From NCBI RefSeq assembly GCF_025602895.1, contig NW_026516233.1, forward strand, positions 434,001 through 498,000: a stretch of 64,000 nucleotides of DNA. The letters are read 5' to 3'. Positions 15,421-54,256 of the stretch are shown in pieces. The stretch comes from Polychytrium aggregatum. Its lineage: Eukaryota > Chytridiomycota > Chytridiomycetes > Polychytriales. The translations under genes were made by a program, and so were the position numbers. The number at the start of each line of letters is the position of its first letter. The first letter of the stretch is position 1. The notes beneath the pieces are model-generated. The model did not search any database. It was not told where the DNA came from and saw nothing but the letters and a program-made list of their open reading frames with translations.

Positions 15421-18400
15421 CTACTCTCTCGCAGCCGTTGCGCGCGGATGTTTGGCGAGAAAGTCCTTGAGCCACATGCTGTGCTCTGCCAGGATGGCCT
15501 CGGACCGGGTGTGGCTGGCTTCCCAGCGGCTCTTGCTCTCGGGGCTGCTTGCACGCAGACTGTTCTGGAGGTAGGTTCGTCCGCGGCCAGGAGGAAGAAT
15601 GCCCTCGGAGAAGAGGCGATCCCGAGTCAGCGGTGTTGCGGATCTCTCGTTGTATGGCCGCCTTGGTGAAGCCGTAGCTGTTGAGGGCTCGGATGTGTGG
15701 CTGCGGCTGTTTGGGCCAGGCAAATAAGGCCAGCGCAACAGCGGTCAGTGGGTGCCCCACAGCTCATGTTCCATTTGTGTCCCAGCTCGTTGGCACAAGA
15801 GTCGCCCGCCATAATCGCATCAACTGCGAACAGTGATTTTGGGAACAGATCGAGCGCACAATATCAAGGAGACAAAACCAACGCATGCTTACCTGGCGCC
15901 TCCTGGTTTATGGCGACGATCGAGAACGGGACTGTTGACCTGGGAGGTTTTCAGCATTCCCATCAGCTTCGAGAGCTCATCCTCGATCTCGTCGAGGTCG
16001 TACATGTGTTTGGAGTGCTTCTTTGCTTGCTATGGTCGACAAGAGGTCAGATTCCATGATGGTGAATGGCGCAGCGGTTATGTGGCGCCGAGCGACGATG
16101 GCCAGCCATGGAGTGCATTACGAACCAAGCCACGGATTTTGAGTGAGAATGAGGCACAGATGGTGCAGAGCATGTGGAGCAGGCAAGCGACCATGGGGAA
16201 TCATGATGAAGTGCCCAAACTAAACCCGACTATGTGTCCAACCATCTACCATCCAGTACGGACGCATCTCCAGCCAAAGCGCTTCCTACCTCGATATCTC
16301 GGGCTCGCTCGTACATCTCCCTCTCCATCTCATGAAGATGGCGCTTGTTTTCGTCAATGACGAAGCGGTCGCGCTGCATTTTCTTTTGATCCTGCTGGAT
16401 CTTGAGAGCCTCATCCTCCAGCTGCAGACGCAGATCGGAGAGGTAGTTGAACTCCTCGGTGCGCTTGGACTGCGACCGAAAGCGAGTTTCGCCGAGATGG
16501 CCATGGACTTTCGTTAGCACGCGCTTGAGGAGGACAGAGCGTGGGTATGATAGCCCATGGCACTGGCGTGTATGGCCCCGGCTGGGAAATCCCACCTGCA
16601 TCATGTCGTTGACGCTCTCCTTGAACTGCGCCTTCGAGCGGTCCAGGACATGCCCTCTGCTCGCGATGTTGATGCGCTGATCTCGCAGGTACCGCTTGGC
16701 CTTCCGGAGCTGGCGCTCCTCCTTCCGAAACTGCTTCTGCAATTGGCGAGTGGGACTCCAAGACTCGCCTCTCGAGCGGCTGGGGAGAACGAGTATGGGA
16801 TCAGAATGTGTCGCTGGCGGGAAAGGCGGCTGATGATGAGTCTCCCGAGTTGTACCTCAAAAGATGATGTTCATTCGACTCGCTCTCCGAGCTGCCGCTG
16901 TCGGAGCCACTCGATGCTCCGGCTTGGGTCTGGTATGCTCGTCGAGCGGTGTACTCTGCTACCCGCTTGACCGGAGATGAATGCCGCTTGGCGCGGACTT
17001 CGTTGCGGAGAGCACCGCGGTCTAAGCGAAACAAGGGGACAGTCAGCGAAGGGCACTCCGTAAACCACCTGTCCTGCTGTGGCTCGCACTGCCGGATGAT
17101 GCTCGCAGAGCCTGTGTGGTGCATCTACCTGGCTCGTCGTCGCTGAGCGGCTCAATCTCTCTCAGCGACATTGCATCGGTCGTGCTCTCGTGGGCTTCGG
17201 GATGGCCGCGTGGTGCGCCATCGGTGCGCTCGAATAGCTCAAAGGAAGGCCGCTCAAACGCATGGTCTCTCTGTATGCCAGCGCTTTGGCTGACTGCTGG
17301 GCTGCCAGACTCGGCGATCGCTCGCGGCTGAGCCCATCCGGCCGACTCGGCTTGCCGCTTCTTCTGGAACGTAATCTCTCGCTCTAGATCTGCAAGGGCT
17401 TGCTTCTCGTTCGAGAGTCGCTGCCGGGTGCTGTTGAGATCGCGCTCGGCCATTTCCAGCTTGATTCTCTCATCCTGGAGATGCAGTCGTCGCTTGGCCA
17501 TCTCGTTTTCAAACGATTCAAGCTTGTCCTTCTCTGCATCAAGATCTTGACGCCTTGATTTGAGTGTCTTGATCTGGTCGTCCATATCCCGACTCAGGCC
17601 TTCCGTGGCTGCCGTCTGGCTGGATGTGGTGGCGAGCGACAGGGAGAGGCTCTCGAGCTGCTCGCGCTTGCTCTTGACTTTGGCCTCGAGCTCCGATGCC
17701 TCCCGTTCCAGTTTTTCCTTCTGGACCTGAACCTGGGCCAGATCGCGGCTTTGCTGCTCGTACTCTTGCCGATCGCGGCGAAGGGTCTCTTGGGACCGCT
17801 GAATATCCCGAGCTAACTGTTCAAGCTGTGTCTGGCGCTCGGCGGTAAGCTTTGCCTTTTCGCTGGCTTGAGCAGAAAGCTCAGCCAGCTTTGATTCAAG
17901 CGACTGAGTCCGCTTTGATTGCTCTATCTCGCGACTCTTACAAACACCATCGATCGCTTGGGCACTGGTGTCCCGTGCCCGCGCCAGCTCATCTTCGTGC
18001 TTGACTTTGACGGCATCGAGTCTAGCCTTGAGCTCGGCCTTGAGCTTTGCAAGTTCATCCTGCTCGAGGGCATCAATCTTTTCCTTGGCTGTGCGGCGGA
18101 TGCGCACGGACTCCTGCTCGAATGTCGCCGCCGACGCTTCTTTGAGTTCCTGCAGCTTTCTATGCGATTCAGCTTGGGCGTCCTTCAGGCTGCGCTCCAG
18201 CCTATCAGCCTCATCTTGTAGCGCTCGACTGTAACGCTCCTGGATCTGCGCCAGTTTGGTCTCCAGTTGGCGCTTTTGCTCCTCGTCCATCTGCTTCAGT
18301 ACCTCTGCGTGCTTGGACTTGCTCGTTTCGAGTGCCTTTTGCTCGTCGATCTCGCGGCTGTGGGCTGTCCTTAGGGCATCGAGTCTCTGCTGGAACAGGC

Positions 18401-20338
18401 GCTGCTCTTCTTGTTCGGCTTGCTGTTGCTTGTGCTCGTAGTCAGCGTGGAGACTCTGCTTCCAGACTTCCAGCTTGCGATCTTCGTCCTTTTGGATCTG
18501 GATCCGCTGGCTCTCTGCTGTCGCTCGGACCTGCTCCTTAATTTTCTCGATGTCGGCCAGAGATGCCGTTTTCAGCTCGGCTTCGAGTGACTTGGTCTCG
18601 GCCTGGACTTTGTCGTGAATGCGCTGTCGTGCTTCCTTGGTTTCTCTGGCCCCCTCTTCCTCGAGCTTCTCGATCTCGTCACGGAGTCTCTTTCGAAGCG
18701 CTGTAATCGCAGCTTCGTGTTTCTGTCGCTCTTCGACTTCGTTCTGGTCATACTCTTTCTGGAGATTCGGACGACTCGACGGCGTCGTCTCCGCAGCTTC
18801 TCCAGATTGAGGAGGGCCTCTTTTGCCATGATCGAGTCCGGGGGCTGGCTCTGATGTCTTTGACGCAAAGGAGTCCCTTTCTGGCCCTGGAGGCTGGTGG
18901 TGCATTTCTGGACTCTGCTTCGGGGACGGGTCGACATCGGAATCGTCCGTAAAGTCAAAATCATCGTCGTCATTTCCGAGACGGCTGATGACCTTGCTCT
19001 GAATGTCTTTGGCGCTCAGCTTTGCCGCTGGCGCCTCGGTATTCTGTCGGACGGTGTTCTTGGGCTTGGAATCAAAGGCGCTGGCATAGTTTGGTCTGAC
19101 TGGACTCGAGTCGGGCAGATTGAAGTCGCTGTCGCTTTCCGATGCAGGCTCGCTGTCGGACGCTTTGTGTCCGCCACCATGCTCGCTTTCGTCGTCATCC
19201 AGTCCCTGATCGCTCTCTTCAGTCGTGACAGCGCTGGAACTGGGCTCCTTGTCGGCGTCGCCTGGAGACCACGATGGTTTCGTCAGAGGTGAGCCCAGCT
19301 TTGGGAGAGTGCTGGGCTTTTTGACAAGATCGGGGAGGGGCTGTAGCTTGTTGGCGGTGCTTTGAGATGCAGCAGTCGAGGATTTAGCGGTTGTGCCTTG
19401 AGCAGGGGTCGCCGAGGATTTGCCGGATACAAGTTCCTTGGACTTTGCTGCAGGCCCCTTTTGCTCCTGCAAAGAGTGCGTGGGAATCAAAGGGAGCTCG
19501 ATGAGTACATCTAGGAATAACTCCGTGCATCCGAGACAGTTTGCAGATGCAAGGGGGCGGGCTTGAAACGAGGTGTCGGAAACGGTGGTTGTTGGGATAT
19601 CGAGCTACTAACCGGTGCGCTCTTGGATTCGCTGGGGGTGATGCTGATTGTTGGGTTGGCAAGGCCCTTGGCCTTTTCTCGCTCGTAGAGCTTGCGATAG
19701 TGCTCGTCGCAGGGATGGTCCCAGATGCTCTCGCCAGTGACAAAATTGAAGTAGTAGATGTTGCCGTCTTCTGTTTGGCTGTGGATGGATCATTGAGTGT
19801 CGGAGCGGCGCTGACAGATCCATTTCTCCTTCGGGGCCAGGGTGCTGTCGAGCAAGGGGGTCTTGGACTCTGGGACACTCACCAGGGTTTCCAGTTTGGC
19901 GGCAGCGGTGCCTTGAGCGACTCTCTGGCGATCCAGAAGAGATGGCCCTCCCTCTCGGTGTCCATTCCCAGGAACTTTGCATATTCGATAATCTCTGTGG
20001 GGGGGGGAAGTGGGATGCGTTATGTGCATTGATAAGAATAGTATGCGGTGCGCCACGAGGGTTCTGTAATTGCGCTTCGCTGTCACTGCGGAGACAACAT
20101 ACCTTCTGTCGTGGGCTCGTAGGATTCGTCGAACCTGGATGGTGGCGTTCAAATCGCGGTTATGGCGATATGCGTGATTTGCTCAGGGTTGCAGCATCAA
20201 AACGATCCGATCCTTGGCCCTGCTGCTGGGCGAGCCCTCTCACTCCTTTCGCGAGCCCACCCGACGCGTGCCATTCTCGGCTTGGGACTTACTCTTCTTC
20301 CTGGATACCGTTTGGGCGGTGGTTGACAGGGATGTCAT
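15421..20338 (-). CDS. CEP164: CEP164-like centriolar distal-appendage protein (WW domain, coiled coil)
   Basis: Distal-appendage protein needed to dock basal bodies and start ciliogenesis. Exons, 5' to 3': (20338)-20293, 20103-20134, 19883-19994, 19613-19778, 17129-19466, 16856-17021, 16596-16779, 16290-16523, 15893-16029 and 15421-15706. All phases close from the second exon on, giving about 1,217 residues plus exon 1. The N-terminal CEP164 signature is clear: [20 protein letters not shown], then [18 protein letters not shown] and the WW core [20 protein letters not shown] followed by [10 protein letters not shown]. Exon 5 encodes a Ser/Asp/Glu-rich linker, then over 500 residues of heptad-rich coiled coil (E/K/Q/L/R). 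Further coiled coils follow ([18 protein letters not shown]). In exon 1 the frame ending NGIQEEE has no ATG near the donor, so the true start is unresolved and may lie in an exon further right. Confidence 0.88.
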
Positions 20339-21442
20339 GGAAAGACAACGGGATGTGAAATGCAGAGTGACTACGTGAGAACGAGTCTGGTTTGCGGCCA
20401 TGGCGCTGGGCGACGCGTTGTGGGATCAGGCCCAGGCTCTGCGGCATCGATGTGTTGTGTGCATGGCAAGCCCACCAAGATCGCTGATTTGCTCATTGCT
20501 GCGTGTCTCTGGCCTATGCGAGGCGCTGGCGATGGGGTAGCCGGTGTCCTGTTGTCGGCAAGGTCTTGGCAAGTTGATCGGGCAAGTGGCTGACGGTTGC
20601 ATGGGCGAGGGAGGGGAAACTGGCGCCTTTGAACTGTGGTCGAGTTGGCGGGCAAATCGCAGGGCGAGCCCGAACATACGTCGGCGGCACGATGCATCCA
20701 TTCTCTCTATCTGCTGTTCGGTTTCATCGCTGGACTGTCGCAACTGGAGTCGCTGGACGCGAGGCTGTGCCTCGGAAAACGGATCGATGCGGCCGCAGCG
20801 CTCAAGCAGAGCTTGGATGACAGCGAAACCTTGCTCGCTCTGCCAACACTAAGGAGGCCTGGCGACAAGGACTCGGGTCTGCCCAGGCGGCAGGGGCAGA
20901 CATGCCATCTCCGAAGCAAGGGACAGCGACAACGCCAGACCTCAAAATGTAAATCGCCGTGCCGTGCTGTGCAGCAGCAGGCGAACACAGGTCGCCAGAG
21001 CACGCGCAAGGGGTCTGCTCGCCTCTCCACGACGGGGCATGTGCTCATCGACTCCCCTGCCCAGTGGTGCATCAGCTTCCCACCGTCGGCGGACAAGATC
21101 CGCAGGCGCCAGAGTTCGCGTTCGGTACAAGGCCGGCTTTCCCCTTTCGCCTGCCACAAGGCAGCGGCGGGGCGTCACAAGAACGAGTGCGACCCGTGTG
21201 GGTCGGGAGCTGCCGGCCTTTAAAGGTGCGGCCGCGGTGCAGCAGCAAGCCGCCGCATCCGCCCGCTCCGTCGCCGCGACAAGTAGTTTATCGAACATCA
21301 GCCACTCACCTGCCTCACGTCGGTTGACTTTACCCCTCAGCAAGCTGCCCACGCTCCTGCCAATCCTCCGAACCCGCATCGAATCAGATCTGCTTTTCCC
21401 AGCCAGGAGCTGCCTTCTGCTGCCGATCCGAAGCACCACCCA
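20339..21442. other. Divergent intergenic region CEP164-like / STAND gene
   Basis: It contains the promoters of two divergent genes and probably the missing first exon of the CEP164-like gene. Several 100-200 residue frames overlap here on both strands, but none shows a domain or fits the splice phases of either neighbour. Confidence 0.4.
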
Positions 21443-24400
21443 ATGGCCCAAGCCCTAGGCTCAACCGCCGAAGACTTCCAGCGCGTGGTAGTTCTGTATG
21501 AAGGAGAGTCTGACGCCGCGGCAACGACTAGGACCGTTCGCATCATTGACGAACATGTCGATGATGATGATAATGGCGGCACGTCCAGCAACCAAAGGCA
21601 GGGCACTACCCAAAACGCCAAGCATATCGAGGGGATCAGCAGAACAATGTCCCTCAAGATGGTGCGAGAGTGGATCAATCAGAGGGCAGAGAAGTCGGCA
21701 ATGACTGATGTCGTGCCCAAATACTACTGCTTTAACAGCGGCAGCACCATTTTGCATCCCGACAAAGAATACATGACGCTTGGAGAATACCTGCGTCAGG
21801 AAGCTTGGTATCCCCTTGAGCAGATCGGCGATCTATTCAGCCCAAATCCAACTAAAATAACCGCCGTCATTCGAATCGCTCCGACGATCGTCATTTCGAT
21901 CCCCAACACAATCGAGCTGCGCTCCCCCAGGGATGCCACGGTGAGGGTTCAGCGACTCTGACTGTGACTGTGGTGCGCAGAGGTCTGCTGTTGGTGAGTG
22001 GCGCTGGAACTCATCCACACCTCTCCACCTTAGTGGCCGATTCCTATTATATACGCTTCAAGACACAGCGTCCCTGTCGAGGCAAACGAAGCGATCCAGT
22101 CAGCCACGCCGCTCTCGCAGCACCAGCATTCGTACCGAGACACCAAAGAGCGATTCGTCGATCTCGTTCTGCGAAAGAGCGATACATTCTTTGCATTCAA
22201 AATCGGCCAACGCCGGTCGCTGTTTGTTTTTGATCCCGACGCCACCATCAACCAGATCTGGGATGAGGTCAGTCAATCTCCGCAGCAGGCCATCGAGGAC
22301 ACGATCGCCGCAGTCGACTCACACTTTGCCGTCATGCGCGAACGTGTAGATCCTCAACTTTTACGGCCTTGGTGATCGCGAGCCCAGGTCCATCTGGAAC
22401 GAAATCTTCTATTCCGGAAAACGTACTGATTTTGATAGTGACGAACAGCTCATAGAGGACTTTTTGGCAAAGAAGTACCAGTCGCTGGATCAGCTTCGTT
22501 TCGTCCCCGATCATTCTGACCGTGGCTGGACATTTTCTCAAATACTGGGATTCTCTCCGACCTTCCAAAGCCAAATCGTCGGCAGTGATATCAACATTAG
22601 AAACGGAATCATCCACATGCAGTGGAATTGCGATGAGACACGTCCACCAACCGGCCCCAAGTCACTCACATTACAACTCGAAATCGTCCATGTGGAGCCA
22701 ATCGAGTCCAAAGGTTTGTGTTGCGACTCTGATTGTGGGCAACCGAGATGATAATTAACGCCATGCATCAATGCCTTCATTATAGTCGATGAGGAATTGC
22801 TCCAAAAGCTTGCGGATCAGTTTGAAGACGGTCGACTGAACCAGAGTCAAGGGCGCCTCACAGCAGCCAGTGGGTTTCTCGACAAGGTGTCGGAAAGCCT
22901 GGACGACCTCCAAGGCAAGAAGGAAGGCGTCAGCAACGCTGTTGAAAACTTGGGGAAGCTGTTCTCCAGCAGCAGCATCAAGCAGCTTTCGGATTTTCTC
23001 GATCATCTCGAGATTCTACCATTAATCAACAACGCCATCAAAGTCCTCAGGTATGTCGCAACCCACATCGCAATGATAGCGGAAAACCAAAGCGAGATTC
23101 GCGAACTTGGGGAATCGGTTGAGAATCTGAAGTGTGCCCTTGAGTACCGACACAAGGCATACTTCTCGGAGGCAGCGCGATATGTGATCGAGGATTCTAC
23201 ATACGAAGAGAGAATGAAGGAGGCAGTTAAGAGGGCGGTCTGTACCCTCCAAAACTATGTACGGTTGCAGCTGGAATACAAAAAAGCGCCCAAAATCGAA
23301 AAGGCGGTAAGTGATCATGAGTAACAAGAAAGGCATTCGTCTTGTAGTGAGCAGAATACTATAATTTACCAACTGGTTTGTCTCAGCTTCGGGCCCAGTA
23401 CTTCAAAAATCAAATCGGAAGCCACAAAGGAGAGGTTTTGAATGCCTCCATGGCCCTGCTTCTCAAGGATCCGATCCACATCGCCATCGACATATCCGTG
23501 TTCCTGAACAATCTCCAGAGTGTCGACGGGCAGCGATTCTGGCGAGAGTACAACCTTCGACGCGAGATTGATGTCCGGTTCTTCAAGAGGGCACTCGGAA
23601 AATACCTGGGAGAGTCGGATGTCGATAAAACCAAGCTAGACAAAATAGTCCGAAAGATCGACGAGAGTGCTGACGGGTTGATTTCGATCTCAGAATTCGA
23701 TCGATGGCTGGGCAAGAAGTCAGTTCTGGAGGCATATCAAGGAGTCCAGGCCGCGGCCAAGATGAAGCCATCAGAAGGAGCAGCAAGCGACCGTGAAATC
23801 CAAGACGGAGACTACAGCAAATATTCTATCCTACTTGATCGTCCTCCAAGCATGACCGACGATATTTTGGGCCATCTCAACGCGCGCTTCCAGGATTCAC
23901 GGAGTCCAATTGTCCGGAAGATATGTGAATGGGTCGAGCAGGTAGACCATAATGCTACCAAATCCATTATACTTACGGCGAAGCCTGGGTACGGCAAATC
24001 TATAATGGCAGCGATGGCACATTCGGTCCTCAAAGATAGCGACAAGATCCTCGCATCTTCATTTTTCCTCAGAGCCGACAAGCCAACAAGGGTTGAGGTT
24101 GTCACAAGTTTAATGGAGCAAATGGTCAAGCGGAACTTCATCTTGAGAAAGCACATGGTATTTGTCGTCGCTGTATTCAAAGAGAATGATCGTCAAGTCA
24201 ATTCCAAGCTGGGGGGCACTAAGAGAGAAGCAGCGAAATCGACGGAAAATGATAACAGCGATGGAGAATTTGAGAAGATATACAAGAACTGGATGGAATC
24301 AATTCAGTCATTGGTTCTCCACAGAAGTGGTAAATCATGGAATGAATATTTGAAGAACATCAAGTCTGTGGCAGAGCGATATGGAGGATGGCGATTGTTT

Positions 24401-27400
24401 TTGGACAATTCGACACTTTGGGAACAATATGACCTCCTGATTGGCCTTCCTATACGGCACTTTGATCTCCAAGTTGAACGTATATGTATCATTATTGATT
24501 CCCTGGACGAATGCCCCCCATCGATTCAACAACAGCTCCTCTATTTGATCAAGTCGATCGCATCCGAAGATGACCAAGGCGATGAAGAGTCCTCGCAGGA
24601 CAATACAAGGAAACTGAATGGAGAGAAGAGCACTCAAACGGCCGGAGATCAGTCGGAAGCCAACAAAGCACAGCCAAGCCCCAACAACGAACAGCCAAGT
24701 CTCAAGAATCAATCCACTCCGGCTAAAGAGGATGGAGGCGACAGTGGCGACATCCAGTCCTCAAAGGATACATCTGCCTCAAATCGCACACGGGTCGTGG
24801 TTGTCACAACAACACGCGAAGAGGGATTGATTTACGGAGAATTGAAATCGATTATGCCACTGCAGATGGTGCCGCTTGATTTCAGGAATGAAAATCCGAC
24901 AGGCCTATTGATAGCAAGTGAAAGCGGTGATCAAAAGACGAACCTCCCTTCCCCATTCAAATCCCAAGAAATTCACGATTCCAATCAAAGTGACTTGATC
25001 GCGTACACCAAATATTTGGCTGCCCAGATGGGACTCGATATCGCTTCTGACATTGCCGAGGACCTGGCATCCATGTCAAATGGATTGCTGTTGTGGGTCA
25101 AGCTGGCGATGGCAAAGCTACGCGAGGACATCATTGGCTCGGGGTCGAAGTCCGTATCCGCCGTGGACATCAAAGGCATTCCCCTTCAATTGAGTGATGT
25201 CTATAAGCATCTTCTGGACAGGTCGGTAGCAAGGTTGAAGGATACGACAAAGGTCGACTTTGAGAACACGATAACCACTATATTGATCGCGTACGAGCCA
25301 CTCAGTACACGCGATCTGTTTTACTTGTTTTTCTATGAAATTGGCATCGAAGCCGATGACGGATCGGCTCAATCCTCGAATCATGAGAGCGACTCGACTG
25401 GAAGCGATGCTTCCAAGGTCGACCTTCTTGCATCTCCAGCTAGAGCAAACCAAAAGACTCTCATGAGACTCCAGGTATTCCTTCAAGATCTCAAATGTGC
25501 CATCTCCCGCCGAGGTCCGTTCCAGGAGGTGACCGAAGAGCCTATAACCGACGATGATTTGGAGGAAGTTTTCCGATGGCTTGACGAAACAGCCGACTCT
25601 GGAGCGAGTGGTACGCTCCACGACAAGGGTTGGAGGAGCGACAAGGGACAAGAACGACTGAAGGAATATGTCAAGGCGCAAGAACTATCACGCTCTGATA
25701 TCCGTTACTACTCGAACGAGCGACTTCGCAAGATCGATGACAGGACTGACTACCTCCTGGAGAGAAGCATGATCAGCTCTGTCTTTATAAACGATCCTCA
25801 GGGAGGCTCTTCAACCCAGGGTCGTCAGGACACGGATTTGGAGGAAAACCTCTCGAGGGCCTTTGTCCGCAGCCATAAATCGATATATGATTCAATGGAA
25901 TCAATGTCCGTATCATCTTCCCTGTATTCAAAGAAGCAAACGAGACCCAAGACATCGCATCCAAAGGATTCGACAACATACAGAAATCAAAGCGATGAAA
26001 TATCGTACGATATCGTCCTCCGGCACGCCCAAATGACCCTCATATGTTTGGAGATCATGAGCAGAGATCCTCCAGCGATGTATCAAATCTCCAGGTCATC
26101 AAACCAAGGTGAAGCGTCAGTTGACCATGCGGCAAAGCACCGCTCATCCCACTCTATGGAGCATGTTCAAGAGCGAGTCATCAGTGAAGCAAGCTCATAT
26201 CAAAGCCCCCTTGGTCACCGACATCAATATTCCACATCTGCATTCGATCAGGAACTCGATACGTCCAGCTCCGAAGGCACACAAGCTGATTCGAAGTCGA
26301 AAGCGACTTTTTCGTCCCAAATGGATATCAAATCCGAACAGCGACATGTGCAATACGCGTACAAATATTGGCTGCGCCATTACTGCCAATGGTTAGGGTA
26401 TCAGAATCGCCAAAGGGCAGTAATCTCCGGAGAAAAATCACTCAAACAGTCCAAGCAACAGCGACTACTAAAGATACTCGATGAGAAAATAGATCGGATG
26501 TTTAGCTCAACGGAAACGACCTTGAAATGGATTCGAGCCAACATGGGGCTGAACAATATGGAAAACATAATTCACGATATCGACATTGCAGCCACGATGC
26601 CGGCTTCCTTACAATCTCGCCAAGTAAGGGAAAATCTCGCCAAAATACGCCGCTCGTTGTTGATCTTTGGCTATCCTCTCATATCGAAGGACAGGAAGGA
26701 TGAAACCAATGGCAAATTGAATCAAGACCAGATCAGTCTCATCGCAGATTGTTCATCGTTCCAAATTGAACTGGACCCGGAATTCACGATCGACGATATG
26801 GATACTTCGCAAGATAGAATATTCGGTGACATATGGGTCGACGGAGGGGGCAACTCAATGTCAGTGAAGTATGTACAGCACAAGGATATTGCCAAGGAGG
26901 ATACAGCTGGGGGCACAAAGGATGATGAGTTTGAATCTGCAATGGAAGAAGCTTATCAAGAAGTCACACAACTAGAGCCAAGTTCCAGTGGTATTGCACA
27001 AACACTTTACATATGTAAATGTGAGTTGAAAGAGTTTACATGCAACTCGGATGTTACTTTGGTGAAATCGAATCCACGGTCGCCCCAAAGCTCGAATCCA
27101 GGCGATCATCGAGATCGAGGCACCGAGCTCAGGGTTGCGGTGGTCGATGGAATCAGAACATCCCAGTCCATCGAATCCATCCGATTTTCCGCATCCGGTG
27201 AAAGCATCATCGTATTTCGCAACTACGACATCGTCATGATCAGGAACTTGCCAAATCCGGCTTCTATCCACGATCATTCCTCGAACCCAACTGAGACGAA
27301 ATACTATGAAAGAATGAAAGCTTCGGTATTTGCCTTATCAAATAAGGGAAAGCATTTTGCGTATGCCGACAAGTCCAACTTGGCGATAATGAAATTCAAA

Positions 27401-29854
27401 TCGGCATCCGACTTCCCGAAATACTTCCGAAATGAAAGTTCAGATAAAAATGGGGGGAAATCCAAAGCCTCGAAAGGCTCGAGTATAAGTCAAACCAACG
27501 GGGCCGTCTCAAATATGGACACCACTACCACCACCACCACCACCACCGCCACCACCACCACCACCGACAGCACGAACAATAACAACAGCAACAATGATAT
27601 TGATCACGACGCAATGGACCTCGAGTGCTCGGCGATTGTTGCGATGGAGTTTTCACCGGATGACGTTTTGTTGGCAACTGGCTCAAGAAACGCAGATAGC
27701 GGAAATGCCATTATCACAATATGGGATGTCGGGCTGAAGGTCCCGCTTATGGAACTAGTCGGTCATGTCTCGACCATATCAGTTATTTACTGGGCAACCA
27801 ACTTGAATGAAGATAATCCGGAAGTAAAGGAAGATGGTAACTTAGATAGCGAGTCATCGAAGCTCTACACTAGGAGGAAAATATTGGCATCTGGATCAAA
27901 TGATGGTACAATCATTGTATGGGATATACGAAACGGGAAAGTAATCAAGAAGATAAATGCAGGAAACACTCCAATTGTGTCAATAATGATGCCTAACGAA
28001 TTCCAGGTCATCTCTGTTGCATCCGACCACACAATCAAGATATGGAGTGTCGACTCAGCCCGTTCAATGGTTGCTGGCTTGGTGGATATCCCAATGACAG
28101 ACAGTATGGATCTCAGGCTGATTGGAGAAAATCAACTTCTTCGAGTTATGCCCGATGGTGCAGAGATATGGCGCCACGATCCATGGACTCAAGAGCAAGG
28201 TATCAAGTCCGAGTTGAACAAGCTACCAATCAGAATCGGGCCGAGCGATAATCCTCAATGCAATATTACAGAGGAATTCGACGGATGGAATGTGAGGATT
28301 CTATCATCGAAGACTGATGATCCAAAAGCGAGAAGCTATGTCCTAAAATTGGTGAGTTCTAGTGATATTATGGCATATTTTGATATAAAATTCAATCAAC
28401 TGACATTCGGGCGTCTACATTAGAGCTGGCTCGATACTTCATCAAACTCAAGCGATTCCCCAACAGTGCCACCCAATCCTCTGACATTACTGGACAAGTT
28501 TAAGAAGTGGGAAGAATACAAACCCAAAGCCAATAATCCAGGAGTGACTGAGACACCAGGTTCTGACAAAAACGATCAGCAACCCAATACAAATGAAGAA
28601 GAAGCAGGTTCAAAAAAAGTGGAACAGTTAACAGCTAAACCAAAATCATCCTTAGAACTATGGAAGCAAGGAAAACTCCAGATCTCCGCCAAGTTTAAAG
28701 AAGATGAGAATCAGAAAGCAGATACGACAAGAATGGCCTTTGATATTGAACCTCAAAGAATCTCCAACCTTGTAAAGGCGGCAGATTTAACAACGGCGAT
28801 CGCTGTGGACATCTCAACCGGTGTTCCTGACCTTGTACTTGCGGGAACTAAAGATGGCCAGGTGATCTATTCAACGAAAGACAATCCTAAAAACCCCAAA
28901 TCGATCAAAGTTCATGATGGAATCATCAACTATATTGCCATCTCCTTTGACGGGAATCTTGTGGCAACTTGTGCCGGTGCTCAAGTTCGCTCTCGTGACA
29001 AATCGATCAAGATTCTGATCCGATTAGAAATCCAGACGGGAAAATATAGCGCCATCCTCAAGTGGGAATTCGACTATCCAGCAAGAGTTGTGGAATTCAC
29101 ACCAGATAATGAGCATCTTGCGATCGGCACAAGTGACGGTGTTGTGCGTCTGTGCAATATCAAAACGGGTGAAGTAACAACATTCACTGCACACAGCGGA
29201 GCGGTTACCGCCCTAAGTATCTCTCAAGATGGCGGTATTCTCGCATCGGGCTCCTTGGACAAGACAATCCGATTATGGAGCTTGGATCAAACCCGCAACC
29301 ACCTAACCTTGAAGGGACACAAGAAAGGAATCTCCTCATTGGCCTTCGTCCAAGTGAATAGCAAGGAACTACTGGTTTCGAGATCTAAGGACGGTAACTA
29401 CAAATATTGGGATCCAATAACCGGGCTCAATGTGGAGTCACCAAAAGACTTGAAGGAAAGTGAAGAAAAGTGCATCTTGGTGTCGCGAGGGCAAATCCAG
29501 ATGAATTCCACTATAGTAAACGTCGAGTGTGATATCAAAATACCAGGAAGTGAGCCCGAAGCCTTGGTTGTCAAACTATCGGATATACAAACGTCAAGTG
29601 AAGAAGCTGGATGGGTCATCAAACGCGACGACAACGTGGAAACAAAGCTTGCCTGGATACCATATGTCTACCGAGGTCACAAGACCGAGTATGACGATAA
29701 ATATCTTTACATCTATGGTCTCGGTGAGAGAGTCACGACCATCGATTTGGGATCGGATCAAGTTCAATTTTATCCAACAGGAATGATAAAGGACGAAGAA
29801 TGCTCAACACACACTCTCTCCACACGTGATGATCCTGGCGATTCCACCGAATGA
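21443..29854 (+). CDS. Giant NACHT-type STAND NTPase with EF-hand and two WD40 regions
   Basis: Predicted signal-transducing STAND ATPase, possibly an NLR-like sensor. Join 21443-21940, 22034-22267, 22350-22713, 22786-23306, 23387-28351, 28424-29854; phases close to 2,670 aa. Residues 1-360 are unrecognised. Residues 366-600 are helical and reminiscent of HeLo/MLKL-type N-terminal bundles (inference). A perfect EF-hand loop, DESADGLISISE, lies at 631-642. Walker A AKPGYGKS is at 737-744, Walker B CIIIDSLDEC near 905-915, and a sensor-like RVVVVTTTREE near 1007, with a Gln/Asn/Ser-rich insert between the last two. WD40-like repeats occupy about 1950-2145 (IVWDIRNGKVI, IKIWSVDSA) and 2350-2530 (SLDKTIRLWSLDQ). 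The last exon could be taken for a separate gene, but a 72-nt GT..AG intron joins it in phase 0. The GTCAGT donor at 22268 is weak. Codons are far richer in A/T than in the flanking genes. Confidence 0.85.
27521..27565 (+). repeat. (ACC)n trinucleotide repeat coding poly-Thr
   Basis: In-frame ACC run with one GCC interruption in the linker before the first WD40 region of the STAND protein, followed by an Asn-rich stretch. Length variation would not break the frame. Confidence 0.9.
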
Positions 29855-30190
29855 TTGTTCTCGTGTTCTGATGATCATGTCAAAGTGAAATACAATTTAT
29901 TCGATAGGAGATATCACAGCTTTGGGTCCACCAGGTCGGTGTGACAAGGAAAGGGTATCAAGGGGAACATACAAGTCGTATATTTGCAGATGCAGTCAAT
30001 GCATCCCAACACACGAGCACAGCAGCATTCAGTAGCAAGTACACATTAGCGACAACGGCATAGAAGGTTGGTTCGAAGTGGGAGTCGGGGTGGCGAGAAC
30101 TTGGTGGTCATGGCGTCGAAGCATCATTGTCCGTCAAAGGGCGCAGTCCTCGGGCAGCCACTGGACTGACGGCCAGATGGATGAGGTTTC
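29855..30190. other. Convergent intergenic region STAND gene / C1A protease
   Basis: Holds the 3' ends of two convergent genes. No coding signal was seen. Confidence 0.5.
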
Positions 30191-31475
30191 TCAGTTGCCG
30201 CCAGAGGTGGTGAAGCCATAGGTCTGGTCGGTCGAGCCAATGCCGCACTGGCCGTATGCGATCCAGAAGAAGCCGTCAGTGCCCCAGGTGGTGGTCCAGG
30301 AGTTCTTGCAGAGCCAGGCCTGGTTGCCCTCGTCCCAGCCGACGATCGAGACAGCGTGGCCGCCCTCCTGCTGGTCGGACTGCTGTGTGTAGATCTGGTT
30401 GTTGGAGCAGCAGTTCATAAAGTCTTGGTCTGTTGGGAGCAAGGGAGAGTGTGGTGAGTCGGTGCCATGTCCACCCAGATGCACTGTTGCATGTGCAGGT
30501 ACTTACAGACAGTGAAGGCAGTCACCACGGCGCCGTAGGTCATGATGTGCTGTTTGATCTCGTCGACGCTGCCGAACGAGGCCACCGAGAGCCCGCTGGT
30601 GCGCTGGCAGCTGCTGTCGTCGCACTGCTGATCCTGACCGTCGCCGGCGGTGTAAGGGAAGCAGTCGGCCGAAACGACGCCGTTCTGGGCAATGTCGTTG
30701 GCCGCCTGGCCGGTCTGCCAGCCAGTGCTGCAGGAGGCGCCGTCACCCGAGCCAAGACAGAAGAAGAGATCGGCGGTCGAGACCTCGATGCTGTTGCCGG
30801 TCTGGCTGAGGAAGGTGCTCTCGACGGTGGCAGCCGAGGAGAAGGCAACGCAGCTGCCGCACTGGCCCTGGTCCTTGATGGACGAGACCCAGTTCTTGTT
30901 GCGGGAATCCCACGAGTCGGGGAGCATGGCGGCTCGGACGGCAGCGGTGTGGATATCAGAGGCGTTGCTGCCCTGGGTGGGGAAGACCACAGACGCCGGT
31001 CAGTGCAACGGCAGAGCGATGCAGAGCGGGCCGGTATCGATGTGGAGTGTGCCAAGCATCGATCGACCATCCACCAGGCATCAGCTGAACACTCGCCAGG
31101 CATCGCAGCAGCAACAGCAGCCACTTGCGGCATTGCATCGGACAGACCACCACTTACAAAGACCGTGGTGGCAAGCGACTCGATGTTGTCATCGGTCATG
31201 GTGAAGCTGGCCATGTTCTTCTTGTTGGACTTTGTGTGGGTCTTGACCTTCTTGACGAGCTTCTTGAAGGCGGGGTCCTTGCGCTGGGTGGCATGGGCCT
31301 GGACCAGAGCCTTGGCATCCTTGGACATGCTGGCCGTGTTCTCGGCAGAGCCGATGACCTTGTCGAGCGACTTGCGGTACTTGTCCCACTTGCCGCCCCG
31401 AGGGACAGTGGCAGCCTCGATGGCTCCGGAGAGGGCGAGGAGGGTGGTGAGAGCAAAGCCGAGGTTGACGAGCAT
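30191..31475 (-). CDS. Secreted papain-like (C1A) cysteine protease
   Basis: Thiol endopeptidase of the papain/cathepsin fold, predicted to be secreted or vacuolar. Exons 31158-31475, 30507-30972 and 30191-30429 close in phase to 340 aa. Residues 1-21 form a signal peptide ([17 protein letters not shown] core). A Lys-rich propeptide (about 22-115) lacks an obvious I29 ERFNIN motif. The mature part starts near [19 protein letters not shown]. Catalytic features are present: [13 protein letters not shown] (oxyanion Gln and active Cys; the usual Trp after Cys is Val), [11 protein letters not shown] (His) and [17 protein letters not shown] (Asn). The CCSNNQ wording fits the S2-pocket loop of lysosomal-type enzymes. 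ATG at 31475 is chosen because it opens directly on the signal peptide. The upstream TTG-initiated extension is not credible. Confidence 0.92.
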
Positions 31476-33956
31476 GGTGGAGACTGGGAGCGAGGCCAAA
31501 GACAGAGAGGCGAGAGGCTGGTCTTGCGATGGAGGCTGGTGTGCCGGTGGTGGTGATGGTCCAGGACAGGCGGGAGCGGTGTCCTTTTATCCCCCAGCGC
31601 ACATCGGCGCATCGCCAGAGGGCCTGGGAAAGACCATGAGGCATGGGGGCGCGGATCGAGAAGGCCCGGTCGATGGTAGGATGCGGCTGGAGTGTGATTC
31701 TCGAGCACGGTGGTTGTGGAATCATCGGGCAGGTCATGCAGCAGCAGGTGGCTCGTGAGAATCGGAAGGAAACAGCGAGCCGACGACCGCCGTGACAATG
31801 CCCATGATCCTGCACTTGGATGGGATGCAAAGAAGACGGTGCCTCCGGGACCCAGATGGAGCCGCCACAATGTCCATTCCGCTGGGTGGCTGGGTCTGGT
31901 GATCTGCCTTTCGTTTTCCTTGCTGGTCGAGCCTCGCCGGCAGGATGGCCGGCTGCTGAAGCAATTGGGAGACAGCTGCAGAGGCAATTGAAATGCATCA
32001 GCACTGGTATGCGCTGCCCGATACAGCAGCATCGGCCGTGTGAGATTCGCCTGGGTCGTCTGCATGAACATGCACTTCGTGGCCAACTGAGAAAGGGCTC
32101 GGGGACGGACCGCCTCGGCCCCAGTCTCCATCTGCTGCGGATGGCTGGTCAGCAGCATTGGCACTTTCCGGCGGAGCTGTGGGCTGACTGTGTCGAAGCA
32201 ACCGTGGGGCTGGCATGCAGTTGATGGGAAAGACCAAGGGCCATGGAAACGGGCCGCATGACGACGGGGCCACCGAGCGAGAAAGACACTGGCGCATGAC
32301 CTCGAGCCGATCCAGAGGAAAGCGGCAGGCGAGCCACCGAAAAAGCAAGGCGCATTCGGCTGACATGGCGGAAAGTCGCCAGGACAAGCGGCATCCGGGA
32401 TCCTGTCGATTCGGCATCTGGCCCCATGGGAGTCTGTGTCCCGAGATCATGCATCGCAGCGGCTGGGCATGTTGATGCCGGTGTCGAGCCCCGTCGGCGC
32501 CCCGCACTGGTTCCCATCGTGGAACCAGCCCATCCTCGGATGCCATCGACCTCAGGTGATCAATCTGCCCGTCTGGCGGCTTGCCTGCGGCCTGCCGATG
32601 GATGCTGTCGTTTAGCGAGATGTGGTGCTCGGGCAAGACCTCCTTTGCTGACTCGCTTAGAAGGAAATGGGGCTGGTGCCCAGCTGCATATTGCGTGGGC
32701 CGCAGTGACAGCCGTGACTTGTGCAGAGGGCAGTCATGAGGCAGAGGGCAGTGGGTTGATGGTTGGTCTGTCTCATCTGCCGTCGCATCCGAGGTATCGG
32801 AGCCATTGCATCGGCACCGTGAGTATCGACGAGTCACTTGCTGGCATCGCCCTCGCAAGATCGCTGGTCCGGATTGCACGATGGGCGAATTGTCGACTCG
32901 GTGAGCAATGTGGATGGGCAGTGTGAATGGGCAGTGTGGATGGACAATGCCGAGATAGGCGATGGAATGCGCTGGCTTGGAAGTGCAGAGATGCAACAAT
33001 GGAGGAATCAGCGAGCGTGGCTCATGGCGAGAGACTTTGGTGATCATCAGTTGAGCCTCGATCGTGATGTGCCAGAGGACGACTCTGCTTTGGATTATCT
33101 GATGTTCCCAAGACGGAGACTATCCAAACAACCACAGCTATTGGTTCATAAGAATGGAGCCCAGCCAGTGACTCTAGCCGCGATGTGATGTTCTGTCCTC
33201 AGCATTGAATGAATCGCCAGGTCTCTTAATCTACTCACGATCCTACAGAGTTTGGAGGACGCCACGTAGTGCGGATATGCGTGAGTCAGGCAGACGGCAT
33301 GGCTCGACTGATGCATTTCTGATCTGGATGCATTGGAGTACTGACTCGCTTGGGGATAGAATGTGCACTCAGGTTTGGTTTCAGCTGATGATGGCAATGG
33401 CCATTGGCGACAGCGAGGATGATATTGGAGTGAGAAGATGTATTCACAGACAATCTGGTGGGAAGACACCACCATGAGTTGCTGGACCAGCGAGCCACGA
33501 CTGATGAGACAAAGACCGTCGAGACAAACGACAGGGATCAGACTGGCGTGAAGGAGTGAATGGAATATAACACGAGTGGATAGGATATGGCTTGGAGTGT
33601 GACAACAATCAGACGATGCGAGTGGCAACGGGGACCAGGACAGGGTTGTTCAATCGATTGATGCCTGACAATCTTGGAACATCATGGAATGCCATTCGCC
33701 GTGGCTGTGGATAGTGTCTGTGCAGTGGTGTCGGTGTGGAGAGCCTGGATGAAGTGCAGTGAGATGGATCAAGGCTATGGCAGATGGGAGACACTGGCGT
33801 GAGCGAGTGGATGATGATCGATGAGAGACGGAGGAACGAAGGATTAGGCAGACAACAAGAGTAGGAATGTGAATACAGCAGTGGAGTGAGTGTGGCAATC
33901 AAAATGGATGGGAACATGGATGGAATGGAGTGAAAACAGAGAAGGGAAGCAAAAAA
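31476..33956. other. 2.5-kb region without supported genes
   Basis: Long minus-strand frames occur (for example 31998-33047) but have Cys/His/Pro/Arg-rich, domain-free translations and no plausible splice pattern. A short direct repeat of an AATGGGCAGTGTG-like unit lies near 32912-32950. The left end is the promoter and 5' UTR of the C1A protease; the right end abuts two tRNA genes. Confidence 0.4.
31583..31592 (-). promoter_or_regulatory. TATA-like element upstream of the C1A protease
   Basis: Minus-strand GGATAAAAGG lies about 110 nt upstream of the ATG at 31475. Position and sequence suit a TATA box with a 75-80 nt 5' UTR; this is inference. Confidence 0.4.
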
Positions 33957-34030
33957 TGCTCCGCACAGGGATCGAACCTGTGACCTTGGCGTTATTAGCA
34001 CCACGCTCTAACCAACTGAGCTAGCGGAGC
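33957..34030 (-). tRNA. tRNA-Ile (anticodon AAU)
   Basis: The minus strand folds as a full cloverleaf: acceptor GCTCCGC/GCGGAGC, D arm TAGCTCAGTTGGTTAGAGC, anticodon loop with AAT (read AAU; A34 expected to become inosine), T arm with GGTTCGATCC. Discriminator A is at 33957. No intron. Confidence 0.96.
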
Positions 34031-34037
34031 GAGAGAA

Positions 34038-34111
34038 TGGTTTCGTCCGGGATCGAACCGGAGACCTTGAGTGTGTTAGACTCACGTGATAACCAACTAC
34101 ACCACGAAACC
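34038..34111 (-). tRNA. tRNA-Val (anticodon AAC)
   Basis: The minus strand folds with acceptor GGTTTCG/CGAAACC, anticodon stem TGAGT/ACTCA, loop CTAACAC with anticodon AAC, and T arm GGTTCGATCC. Discriminator A is at 34038. It lies 7 bp from the tRNA-Ile gene on the same strand, suggesting possible co-transcription by RNA polymerase III. Confidence 0.95.
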
Positions 34112-38573: not shown

Positions 38574-40608
38574 TTAGATGAGCCGAATAAAGGGATTTCG
38601 ATTGATAGTTAGACCCACCAGAATTATACATGGCCAAGAGTTGATCATAATGGCTCCTTCAGCTTTGGTGAATAAAGTTTTGTTCAAATTACGGAATAGG
38701 GAGAATGGAATTTTGACAGGATGAATGCCATGGCGGATCCACTGGGATTCGCTTCCAATATCAATTTGGATCCAGCCGACTGAAAACAGGGGGCTTGATA
38801 CCGCCGAGCATTTGGCTGGGATATCGTCGGTCCGAATATACTGCCCTTCACGATAAATCCAGAGATATCGAATACCCTTCTCATCCCGAGACAAAATTGA
38901 ATTACCCTCAGGCGGTATTTCCACAGATACGACGATCCTTTTGTGTCCCTTGAGTGTGTAATGTTCTTCGCCCGTGGTCGCATCCCACACTTTGATGGTC
39001 TTGTCATTGAGCCAGAAGCAATCAACCTTCCATCGGATGAGATTGCAACGGAGTTTACTGTCCCTTTGTGCCCTTCGAGGGTGTGTTTCAGCTGGCCCGT
39101 AATGGTATCCCATACCTTGATGGTCTTGTCCCATGAACCAGAGATAATCCACTGGCCATCGTGTGAGATCGCCACGGAGTTCACATCATCTGTGTGCCCT
39201 TTGAGGGGGCGATTGACTCGCTCCATGATGAAATTCCATACCTTGATGGTCTTGTCGCTCGAGCCAGAGACAATCCACTTGCCATCAGGCGAGAACACAA
39301 CCGAGCGTACAGCATCTTTGTGACCCTCGAGAGTGTGGCATAATTCGCCAGTGGTGGCATCGCACACTCTGATGGTTTTGTCCCAAGAGCCAGAGGCAAT
39401 CCACTTGCCATCGGACGAGATTGCAACGGAGTTCACAAAATCTTGGTGCTCCGTGATACTGCGCATGAGCTCGCCAGTGAGGATATCCCATATTCTGATG
39501 GTCAGATCATTAGAGCCAGAGACAATCCACTTGCCATCGGACGAGATGGATATCGAGCGAACTTCTCGTTGGAGGCCTTCAATGGAGTGCTTCAGTTGTC
39601 CCGAAATGGTATCCCATACTTTGATCGATACATCGTGAGAGGCAGAGACAATCCATTGGCAATTCGGTGAGATCGCCACGGAAGTCACTCCGAATTGCGC
39701 GTTATAAGTATACTTCACCTGGCCTGTGGCGGCATCCCACACCTTGATGGTGTAGTCCATGGAGCCAGAGACAATCCACTTGCTATCGGATGAGATTGCC
39801 ACGGAGTTCACGCTGCCCGTGTGTCTTTCGAGGGTGTGCATCACTTGCCCAGTAGTGGAATCCCATAACTTGATGGTCTTGTCCCATGAACCAGAGGCAA
39901 TCCACTTGCCATCAGGTGAGATCGCTACGGAGTTCACGGGACCCATGTGTCCGTTGAATGTGTACTTCATTTGGCCTGTAATAGAATCCCATATCTTGAT
40001 GTTGTTGTCGGTGGAGTTATATGTCGCACCGGATCCGGAAATAATCGATCTGCCATCAGGTGAGATTGCTACGGAGTTCACAAAATCTGCACGCTCCGTG
40101 AGTGTCATCACACACGGATCCCAGGTCGGTGCTGGACCGCAAGTGACCAGGAACGGGATCTTGTCCTCGAGCTGGGTGGCATATGTCTTGTAGATCGCCG
40201 TCTCCTTCGGTGTGAATGCATATCCCGAGTTGTACACCTGTGGTGCACTCTTGATGATCGGATCGGCAAACTCGCGGATGAATCGATACGTGTCCTTGAC
40301 CAGTTCCTTCGTGGTGTCGTCGACGATAGTGCTGGGTGCCTTGTCGATCACTCCTCGAAGCACAGCCAGTTGCTCGATGATCGACTTGACCACATGTGTG
40401 AGCGACCCACACTCGAGCCAGAAGAACACATGTGTCTTGACGAACCGAGTGAGCACCGCTGCCACATCGACCATCTCGGCCGACTGCCACACCGGACTCG
40501 ACTCGGCCGCTCCTTCCACACACCACACAAAGTGTGTGATCCAGTGGGCGACGCTGTATCGCAGCGACGGTGTGATGATTTTGTTAACTCTGTCCTCGAG
40601 GTCGCTGA
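38574..40608 (-). pseudogene. NACHT/WD40 (NLR-like) gene, C-terminal half, truncated by LINE insertion
   Basis: The frame enters at 40608, next to a poly-T run, with SDLEDRVNKIITPSLRYSV and CVEGAAESSPVWQ. This is the wording found after the NTPase domain of fungal NACHT-WD40 proteins, so the N-terminal effector and NACHT domains have been cut away. A helical linker leads into about ten WD40 repeats of roughly 42 residues (consensus VNSVAISSDGKWIASGSWDK then TIKVWDATTGQLKHTLEGH). A one-base deletion near 39,010 (GSWDK expected, SMTRP read) shifts the frame; reading continues in a second frame through repeats nine and ten to a stop at 38574. The 5' half is expected beyond the nested retroelements, right of this window. 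The repeats are nearly identical, as in fast-evolving fungal NLR propellers. Confidence 0.85.
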
Positions 40609-40678
40609 TTTTTTTTTTTTGTTACTATAGTCAACTTTATTTAAGAAGACAAGCCATCAGGTCCAACAGGTTGGTACC
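40609..40678 (-). mobile_element. Short 5'-truncated LINE 3' end
   Basis: Twelve T residues (poly-A on the minus strand) at 40609-40620, then DNA matching the 3' end of the LINE at 47012 onward with one substitution, including AATAAA at 40641-40636. Its last eight bases are at 47004-47011, displaced by the chromovirus. It has no coding capacity. Confidence 0.85.
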
Positions 40679-41259
40679 TGTCATGAACACCCTCTGCCTT
40701 TGCCCTCTTCCTTCCTTTACCCTTGCCCTTTCCTTTCTGTTTGCCTGTCTTAGTGCTTTCCCTTCCTTCTGTTTGTTTGTTTCCCGCGCTGTGCTGCCTT
40801 GTTGTCTTACCGCAAGCACGCGCGCTGCCTGTGTTCCGTTCCCGCTCCCTTGCTGTTGGTCATGGGTTACGCCCACGACGCCGCCTCGACGCCGCCTGAC
40901 GCCTTGGCGCCGCCAAGCCGCCGCCACTGACGCCCGCTGACTCACGGATCCCGAGTCACGGCCGCCACCTGCTTCGCTCGCTGCTTCGCCCTCCCCGCCG
41001 CTGCTTCGCTCCTGCCCCCTCGCTCTGCAGCGTCGATCCTTGGCGCTCGCATAAATAGCCCTCCGACCAGCCTCTGTCTTTTGCCTTCGTCTTGCCACTT
41101 TGTATTTTTAGTATCCTAAGCCTTGGATCTAGAATAAAACTTTGGCTTCACACTTGACACTCTGTGTCCCAGTCCAGTCCCCGCTCCTCTCCCTACGTTC
41201 GAGTCTTGCATTAGGACTCTTGCGCACTTCCCTGCTTGCCCCGTTGTCCAGTCTTGACA
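40679..41259 (+). repeat. Chromovirus A 5' LTR
   Basis: 581 bp. A TATA-like ATAAATAG at 41051 and an AATAAA signal at 41133 suggest promoter and polyadenylation roles. No difference from the right LTR was noticed by eye. Confidence 0.92.
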
Positions 41260-41330
41260 CTTGGCAAGACCTTCAACAACCCCCCACTTGCCCTGCCTTT
41301 GCCCCGTCCCCTTCTCTATCTCTTTTACCA

Positions 41331-52400: not shown

Positions 52401-53349
52401 GCACGACACAGAGGAACGACGTGTCCTTCTTGATCAGCCTCTTGAATTGCATGGCTGAGAGGAGAGGTGGCATGTTGGGTGAGGCCATGCCCTGCAGGAC
52501 AATGTCAGGGCCAACACGGACAGTGCGGCCTTTCCAGTCGACGACTGGAGTCGGCTCGGCACGAGCAAGCCAGCTCATGCCGAGGATGGCATCGAACTTG
52601 GTGTCGATCACTTGGAACAACAGGACAGGATGGTACTTGGGATGGAGGGCCACTCGCAGGACCACTTGGTGTGTGCACTGCTGCACACGATCGTCTGCAA
52701 GCGCCACACTCATCGGCGACTTCTTCTTGGTTGCATGTATGTTGAGCTCCTGGAGCAAGCGTCTGCTGACAAAGTTGCAGCTTGCTCCAGAGTCCACCAT
52801 CATTCGGACGGTGTGACCTTGGACGGTGGCAGGGAGGTACAGCAGGGACTCTTCATGGTCCTCCTGCACAGCCTCCTGCACCATGACTTGACTTGGGGGA
52901 ACGGGCGACACTTGGTCTTGGTTGGCTTCATCACGGCCACTCGGACATTTTGGATAGGGTTCGGCCATTGCGGGGGCCTGCGGCGTCAGCACGCCATTGC
53001 ACACGACGTCCACGGCTTGCGGACACATGTCGGAAGCATCCGACACACACGACTTGACAGGGGTGAGGGCACAGGCGGTCCTGTCCCTCAAGGGTTCTTG
53101 ATTTTCTTTTTTGTTTTGGTTTTCAATTTTGGTTTTCTCTTCACGTTCGTGGAGAGGCAGGCGGCTTGCGCCACCATGCACCTCTCGCACGACGCACAAC
53201 ACTTGGTTTGTTTCTCCTTCGGGGGAGGGGGCGAGGTGAACTTCCTCTGGAGACGCGTGGACTGCATTGAGCAATCCACGGCGTTGGTCTCCTACTAGGG
53301 CTCCAGAGCCACCTAGTAGGGTCGGCCGTTTCCCGACTTCATGGGGCAC
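49417..53349 (-). CDS. pol: Chromovirus B copy 1 Pol (PR-RT-RNaseH-IN-chromodomain)
   Basis: Open frame of 1,310 codons in the -1 frame relative to gag, overlapping it by 37 nt and opening without an ATG. Order: Cys/Pro-rich linker, aspartic protease ([16 protein letters not shown]), reverse transcriptase ([24 protein letters not shown] in [12 protein letters not shown]), RNase H ([13 protein letters not shown]), integrase HHCC ([15 protein letters not shown] ... CHTCK), catalytic core ([26 protein letters not shown], and Glu in [13 protein letters not shown]), GPF module and chromodomain ([20 protein letters not shown]). The stop TAA is 9 bp from the LTR. The chromodomain suggests targeting to H3K9-methylated chromatin, which would fit insertion into other retroelements; this is inference. 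Confidence 0.94.
53291..53334 (-). promoter_or_regulatory. -1 programmed frameshift signal, chromovirus B copy 1
   Basis: On the minus strand GGGAAAC (53334-53328) is a canonical XXXYYYZ heptamer in the gag frame. Seven bases later CCTACTAG pairs with CTAGTAGG (53320-53313 with 53298-53291), with an inner GGCT/AGCC stem. The gag stop TAG lies in the 5' arm. Confidence 0.8.
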
Positions 53350-54134: not shown

Positions 54135-54256
54135 GGCAGGGGCAGGCTCCAGGGACAGAGAGGAGAGTCGGTCGGCAAGAGAGGCGGGATCCAGCTTGAG
54201 GATCTAGAAAGAGGACAAACAGGACGAAAACAAGACGAGGATTTCCGATGCTACCA

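Follow-up and report, generated by a model that had tools for sequence, protein, structure and literature searches.

We analysed a 64,000-nucleotide window (the whole stretch of DNA considered here) from the 64.7-Mb assembly of the chytrid Polychytrium aggregatum (contig C235:434001-498000). On its plus strand lies a gene whose predicted product combines an EF-hand pair, a NACHT-type NTPase and two WD40 regions in one giant protein. An earlier note, made from the letters of the window, had proposed six phase-consistent exons giving about 2,670 amino acids (aa); the computed join of the six is in phase, free of internal stops and exactly 2,670 aa long. Exon 1 (21443-21940, residues 1-166) encodes an N-terminal region to which no family is assigned and is followed by exon 2 (22034-22267, residues 167-244), exon 3 (22350-22713, residues 245-366, with its final codon split) and exon 4 (22786-23306, residues 366-539), mostly helical in a low-confidence structure model. 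Exon 5 (23387-28351, residues 540-2194) carries the EF-hand pair, the NTPase, a linker and the first WD40 region, and exon 6 (28424-29854, residues 2195-2670 plus the stop) the second WD40 region and a C-terminal cap.

The locus is deposited in GenBank as BJ171DRAFT_584160 (protein model P0001, 1,244 aa). P0001 is identical to the joined model across residues 1-796, so that an independent prediction stands behind introns 1-4. A placement of intron 2 at 22346-22382 was rejected, as P0001 and the required length of 2,670 aa give 22268-22349. Further downstream, P0001 removes residues 797-922 as an in-frame "intron" of 378 nt (24158-24535) with the Walker B motif inside, and its identity to the joined model stops at residue 1366. 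A paralog elsewhere in the genome, BJ171DRAFT_585147 (P0002; contig C323, locus L015, 2197-6840), has Walker B in the corresponding position and reads on in frame, and on this evidence we took the excision and the early end of P0001 as annotation errors; its skip of Walker B and its early stop are probably wrong. Both genes look incomplete as deposited: P0001 is without Walker B and the WD40 half, and P0002 seems to skip N-terminal exons that are visible by eye at its locus.

The basis for intron 5 (28352-28423, GTGAGT...TTAG, 72 nt) is frame, splice signals and homology only, and we asked whether two separate genes could be split at 28,351. In the paralog, 1,547 codons form one frame, which starts ahead of the EF-hand, takes in the NTPase and the linker and runs to where the WD40 region ends. 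Aligned with the paralog, the window protein shows the same order of parts: residues 368-930 and 993-1438 match, and so do several WD40 stretches that overlap one another. In a four-sequence database, the final 180 residues of the window protein, encoded by exon 6, are matched by two further NACHT-WD40 genes of the genome (E = 5e-5 and 0.004); the paralog reaches an E of only 0.27 there. Because one frame of the sister gene covers all the parts, EF-hand through WD40, we assigned the WD40 half to the window gene; together with the similar C-terminal ends of the other genes, this makes a split near 28,351 unlikely, and the comparison favours one gene.

The best stretch for the NACHT-type family NPHP3_N (PF24883) lies at 23924-24160 (residues 719-797) and scores 39.9 bits, above the Pfam cut-off of 24.8. 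Walker A (AKPGYGKS, 23978-24001, residues 737-744) is at the same place in the paralog, and Walker B (IIIDSLDEC, 24488-24514, residues 907-915), the motif omitted by P0001, is kept there too, as expected of a NACHT/STAND-type P-loop NTPase. The first WD40 region spans 27485-28069 (residues about 1906-2100) and the second 28796-29467 (residues about 2319-2542), so that the polypeptide with the NTPase also has C-terminal repeats, encoded by exons 5 and 6 in the window gene and within one frame in the paralog. The proposed order of NACHT Walker A and B, long linker and two WD40 regions was thus recovered. For the NACHT family proper (PF05729), the window gene is not among the 15 matches in the genome, and the P-loop part also gave weak matches to RtcR. 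We take the predicted protein to be a full-length STAND (signal transduction ATPases with numerous domains) switch protein, similar to NOD-like receptors (NLRs).

The EF-hand pair occupies 23522-23710 (residues about 585-647), a degenerate hand followed by a canonical one, with Pfam scores below cut-off. An EF-hand loop has 12 residues, with D at position 1, ligands at 3, 5 and 9, and D or E at 12. The loop claimed at residues 631-642 is indeed there, directly upstream of the NTPase: DESADGLISISE (23660-23695) satisfies the full PS00018-type pattern (D1, S3, D5, G6, I8, S9, E12) and is its single match in the protein, and such a loop arose in 2.2% of 2,000 residue-shuffled proteins. The loop sits 106 aa and the pair 152 aa upstream of Walker A. 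Several Pfam models detect the region in the window copy (EF-hand_7, E = 0.00026; EF-hand_1, E = 0.0041) and in the paralog (EF-hand_6, E = 0.0055; EF-hand_1, E = 0.012; Cbl_N2, E = 0.02), where the EF-hand-like pair keeps the same position. A two-sequence profile built from the window copy and the paralog aligns to solved EF-hand proteins, matching 17 PDB sequences, among them S100-A16 across both hands (E = 0.012). The low-confidence AlphaFold model of the pair has the EF-like element order H-E-H-H-E-H, and in a Foldseek comparison with this model most of the best 50 matches were EF-hand proteins, none of them at E ≤ 0.001.

These results bear on whether the loop is a chance match in a helical linker that contains no EF-hand. 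All scores lie under the family cut-offs and the structure models are poor, as a chance match would have it. Against this, several EF-hand models match weakly and independently at one and the same place in the two paralogs, the region aligns to solved EF-hand proteins, and the helices and strands come in an EF-like order. We consider a chance match very improbable; judged by its sequence, the EF-hand is real.

The paralog is about 30% identical to the window protein (27-33% by stretch, 24% over one linker stretch) and shares with it the low G+C and the order of helical exon, EF-hand-like pair, NACHT, linker and WD40. It differs in position 1 of the loop, in an N-terminal region that is nearly unalignable, and in WD40 scores that are much higher than those of the window gene. 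To place this pair of genes among the NACHT proteins of P. aggregatum, we compared them with 58 loci that have other NACHT-type matches (haplotype copies included); an NTPase frame could be placed in 57 of these, L008 being the remaining one. Upstream of Walker A, EF-hand_1 matched 2 of 59 NACHT frames (the 57 plus both EF-hand genes), EF-hand_6, EF-hand_7 and EF-hand_8 matched one frame each, and NPHP3_N matched 57 of the 59. The table of this comparison does not name its members, and both genes had matched EF-hand_1 before, so the two positive frames are evidently the window gene and its paralog.

Many control frames are short upstream: fewer than 152 aa precede Walker A in 42 of the 57, and fewer than 106 aa in 19. 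Wider upstream checks were added for this reason. No PS00018-type loop was found in same-strand frames of at least 40 aa in the 1,300 nt that precede Walker A at the 57 loci, a scan to which L007 and L059 contribute less than 900 nt of upstream sequence and whose strict pattern would miss the paralog's own loop too. Of 220 non-redundant same-strand frames taken from these upstream stretches of other NACHT genes, 148 were scanned, and they likewise gave no EF-hand family at E ≤ 0.02, a limit that both EF-hand genes would pass. Finally, a profile of the pair, run over 67 loci in six frames, found only the window gene and the paralog. Among the 148 upstream frames, TIR_2 matched seven (best E = 2.1e-11) and SAM_2 two. 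P. aggregatum carries a large NPHP3_N-WD40 repertoire (loci L002, L017 and L018-L067), at least part of which looks like TIR-NACHT-WD40 because of these upstream matches.

Several observations weigh against a calcium-responsive role for the pair. Every Pfam EF-hand score is under its curated cut-off, and in the window copy the bit scores are below the level for family membership (EF-hand_7, 21.7 against 30; EF-hand_1, 17.0 against 25.4; EF-hand_8, 15.3 against 28). The AlphaFold models have a mean pLDDT (predicted local distance difference test) of 44.9 for the pair and 42.9 for the helices plus pair. By eye, the first hand is without a usable loop in either copy. The paralog loop, NDNHDQYISVDE, has N instead of D at position 1 and Q at position 6, and without D1 it fails the PS00018-type pattern. 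There is a single paralog, and no orthologue, from which selection on the loop could be gauged.

Degenerate EF-hands act as structural elements in several signalling proteins. The pair could accordingly be a structural spacer in the same NLR-like switch, its calcium response lost, as the degenerate first hand in both copies and the altered loop of the paralog would suggest. The look-alike noticed by eye, and with weak scores, points the same way: the pattern FWRK...F..AL...I...YIS..EF recalls the EF-hand of Cbl, where it forms part of a larger helical module. On the other hand, the second loop of the window copy retains its ligand positions, which a merely structural loop would not need to keep. 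A spacer seems to us a tenable reading of somewhat less than even odds. As the loop ligands are intact, calcium binding by the window copy is on balance probable, and with N at loop position 1 it is doubtful in the paralog.

We followed the Cbl resemblance further. The tyrosine-kinase-binding (TKB) module of Cbl consists of a four-helix bundle, an EF-hand and an SH2 domain. Aligned with human Cbl over both hands, the paralog gave z = 6.5 (0 of 3,000 shuffles as good) and the window copy z = 4.6 (6 of 3,000). For Cbl_N2, the paralog reaches 15.9 bits, short of the cut-off of 22, and the window copy is not among the families listed. Neither SH2 nor Cbl_N3 occurs among the five families listed for P0001 at E ≤ 0.5, and what follows the EF-hand is the NTPase. 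Nor does Cbl occur among the 17 PDB matches of the two-sequence profile or among the best 50 matches of either structure comparison of the pair. The window protein thus shares with the Cbl module the order of a helical region and then an EF-hand pair, and differs from it in scoring below the Cbl_N2 cut-off and in having no SH2 match. A Cbl-type TKB module, for which support was weak, was not adopted; the resemblance is a lead, not membership.

Upstream of the pair, residues 1-365 match no Pfam family above cut-off. Exon 1 has no family listed at E ≤ 10 and, like a 110-residue piece of exon 3, no second copy in its own genome at E ≤ 1. A hint of an ADP-ribosyltransferase in exon 3 (PF15634) was dropped at 14.8 bits against a cut-off of 25, and a tandem repeat within the N-terminus was rejected for want of a signal. 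Exon 4 has one relative in the genome, the paralog on C323 (27%), and no family above cut-off. Aligning the N-terminal regions of the two paralogs gave z = 2.2 for the first part, with 83 of 2,000 shuffles as good, and no signal for the second.

No family corresponding to a HeLo, HELL, Goodbye, TIR, HET or enzymatic head scored above cut-off in the window protein, whose unannotated head may belong to a class not yet described. HeLo, HELL and Goodbye were also absent among the families listed at E ≤ 10 for exon 4 (4 families) and for its counterpart in the paralog (17), scans that are limited by HMMER filters dropping most matches above an E of about 0.1; a HeLo-like identity of exon 4 was rejected in the absence of any profile match. 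For exon 4, the nine PDB matches comprise repeat proteins, coiled and designed ones, and others; four sub-threshold repeats make up the best of them (E = 0.00023). The model of helices plus pair retrieved mostly BAR, F-BAR and other long helical proteins among its best 50 matches, at E = 0.35 or worse.

The base composition of the gene departs from that of its neighbours, as the earlier note had observed: the coding sequence has 47.5% G+C (exon 6, 45%), as against 56-61% in the 2-kb segments directly flanking it (18001-21000 and 30001-34000). The large exon of the paralog has 47.8% G+C, and the two EF-hand NACHT genes (G+C about 0.475-0.478) have a third-position G+C of 0.53, compared with 0.72 and 0.75 in two other NACHT-WD40 genes. 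Since the paralog shares it, the low G+C belongs to the two genes and not to the site, and we set aside horizontal transfer on the same ground.

NPHP3_N has 110 matches in the genome (haplotype copies included), of which 90 score at least 86.8 bits; in this genome-wide search the window stretch reached 27.5 bits and the paralog two pieces of 31.1 and 26.0. The window gene thus stands apart from the main repertoire, in this score and in a G+C lower than that of the two repertoire members measured, and no TIR-like head was found in it. This would fit a NACHT-WD40 scaffold or cytoskeletal protein that is not a self/non-self receptor, with calcium acting on scaffold assembly. NWD1, TEP1 and nephrocystin-3 are the scaffold-type NACHT-WD40 proteins for comparison. 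The NPHP3_N match itself is no argument for a scaffold, because this family fits the main repertoire too. Moreover, the order of NTPase, linker and WD40 is that of the expanded repertoire, two members of which have a similar C-terminal end, and the N-terminal region hardly aligns with that of the paralog, as might be the case for fast-changing receptor heads. We regard a scaffold as unlikely.

We favour direct calcium regulation through the EF-hand pair of an NLR-like STAND switch, with a probability of roughly 0.45. In STAND proteins, a ligand on the sensor side frees the NTPase for nucleotide exchange, self-association and exposure of the N-terminal part. By analogy, the WD40 propellers would probably sense, the NACHT-type NTPase would switch and self-associate, and the N-terminal and helical parts would signal, so that ligand sensing by the WD40 part would release the NTPase and expose the N-terminal parts. 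The paired EF-hand sits between the helical part and the NTPase, where such movement would be transmitted; the second hand of the window copy, probably binding calcium, may set whether the helical part is held against the NTPase or released from it. What the analysis establishes is the gene model, the order of domains, the EF-hand signature in the sequence and its retained position in one paralog; calcium binding, the action of the pair as a hinge and whatever part the protein may play in immunity or self-recognition are our inference.

The earlier note had gone further, suggesting calcium-gated oligomerisation. What stood up to analysis is a giant protein of the STAND/NACHT-WD40 type in which an EF-hand motif immediately precedes the NTPase, a placement that one paralog retains; calcium gating is unproven, given N1 in the paralog, scores below cut-offs and pLDDT values of 43-45. 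In a calcium-gated NLR, the pair between the signalling helices and the NACHT would read cytosolic calcium directly, and assembly would take a ligand sensed by the WD40 part together with a rise in calcium, or else calcium would hold assembly off. We think this boldest reading rather unlikely. In plants and animals, cell death driven by NLRs goes along with calcium flux, either as its consequence or with calcium as a trigger that lies upstream and works through other proteins. If a receptor had a calcium hand of its own next to the NTPase, direct control of NLR assembly by calcium could be tested on a small fragment that can be expressed.

Elsewhere in the window, a 645-codon frame on the minus strand (38684-40621) contains WD40 repeats along with a helical linker and in this resembles a NACHT-WD40 protein's C-terminal half; the window has no NPHP3_N match beside it, and the frame may represent a receptor gene that has been truncated. 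About 500 bases upstream of it begins a Ty3/Gypsy-like frame (41133 onwards). By eye, retroelement-like frames lie at 41133-46417, 49417-54203, 54497-58908 and 59202-61799 and comprise gag/pol of the long terminal repeat (LTR) type and endonuclease-reverse transcriptase of the non-LTR type. The translations of 49417-54203 and 54497-58908 are largely identical, which suggests recent insertion or duplication. Also on the minus strand are a coiled-coil frame (17043-19790) with a WW-like piece in a neighbouring frame, which we take to resemble the ciliary protein CEP164 (the large frame has no Pfam match at E ≤ 1e-5); a papain-family cysteine protease gene (30191-31586; Peptidase_C1, E = 9e-13 in 30191-30499) just downstream of, and convergent with, the NACHT gene; and the genes for tRNA-Ile(AAT) and tRNA-Val(AAC), with 7 bases between them (33957-34111).

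The earlier note knew of no established class with a calcium-binding loop fused directly before the NTPase. Protein searches bearing on this returned no relative outside P. aggregatum. Residues 1-420 of exon 5, compared with 5.8 billion proteins, gave two matches among 5,463 candidates, both from this species. Two further searches scored only the candidates sharing most words with the query: one with the alignment found only the paralog among 7,995 scored candidates and missed P0001, even though the window gene was in the query, and one with residues 1-560 of P0001 found only P0001 among 7,992 and missed the paralog, even though exon 4 was in the query. Their otherwise empty results are weak, because each missed a known relative.

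PMC9815663 and PMC10197012 name HeLo, HELL, Goodbye-like, patatin, HET/TIR and PNP_UDP heads of fungal NLRs, and none of these heads has a match in the window protein. A 2014 survey reported no NLR matches in the chytrids it analysed (PMC4986451), and TIR domains are stated in PMC9815663 to have been reported in NLRs from Chytridiomycota. The term "EF-hand" is absent from the main texts of PMC9815663 and PMC10197012, as are "EF hand" and "calcium" from that of PMC4986451. Among the papers listed by searches of the open-licence literature, the titles and abstract openings held no fusion of EF-hand and NACHT in fungi or in NLRs; a paper on the Aplysia immunome (PMC9334734) contains both terms, and the EF-hand passages of PMC4083563 concern dinoflagellates, not NACHT proteins.

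Compared with the expanded NPHP3_N-WD40 repertoire of its own genome, the window protein has the same NTPase, linker and WD40, with a similar C-terminal end in the two members compared; the repertoire differs in upstream frames that, as scanned, have no EF-hand match and in the higher G+C of the two members measured. With fungal NLR-like STAND proteins of the HET-E/NWD2 type, which have a NACHT or NB-ARC domain and WD40 repeats, it shares an NTPase that has both Walker motifs and precedes the WD40 part. It differs from them in its 2,670 aa and in the EF-hand pair before the NTPase, which, if calcium does regulate the switch, would be a new head type for early-diverging fungi.

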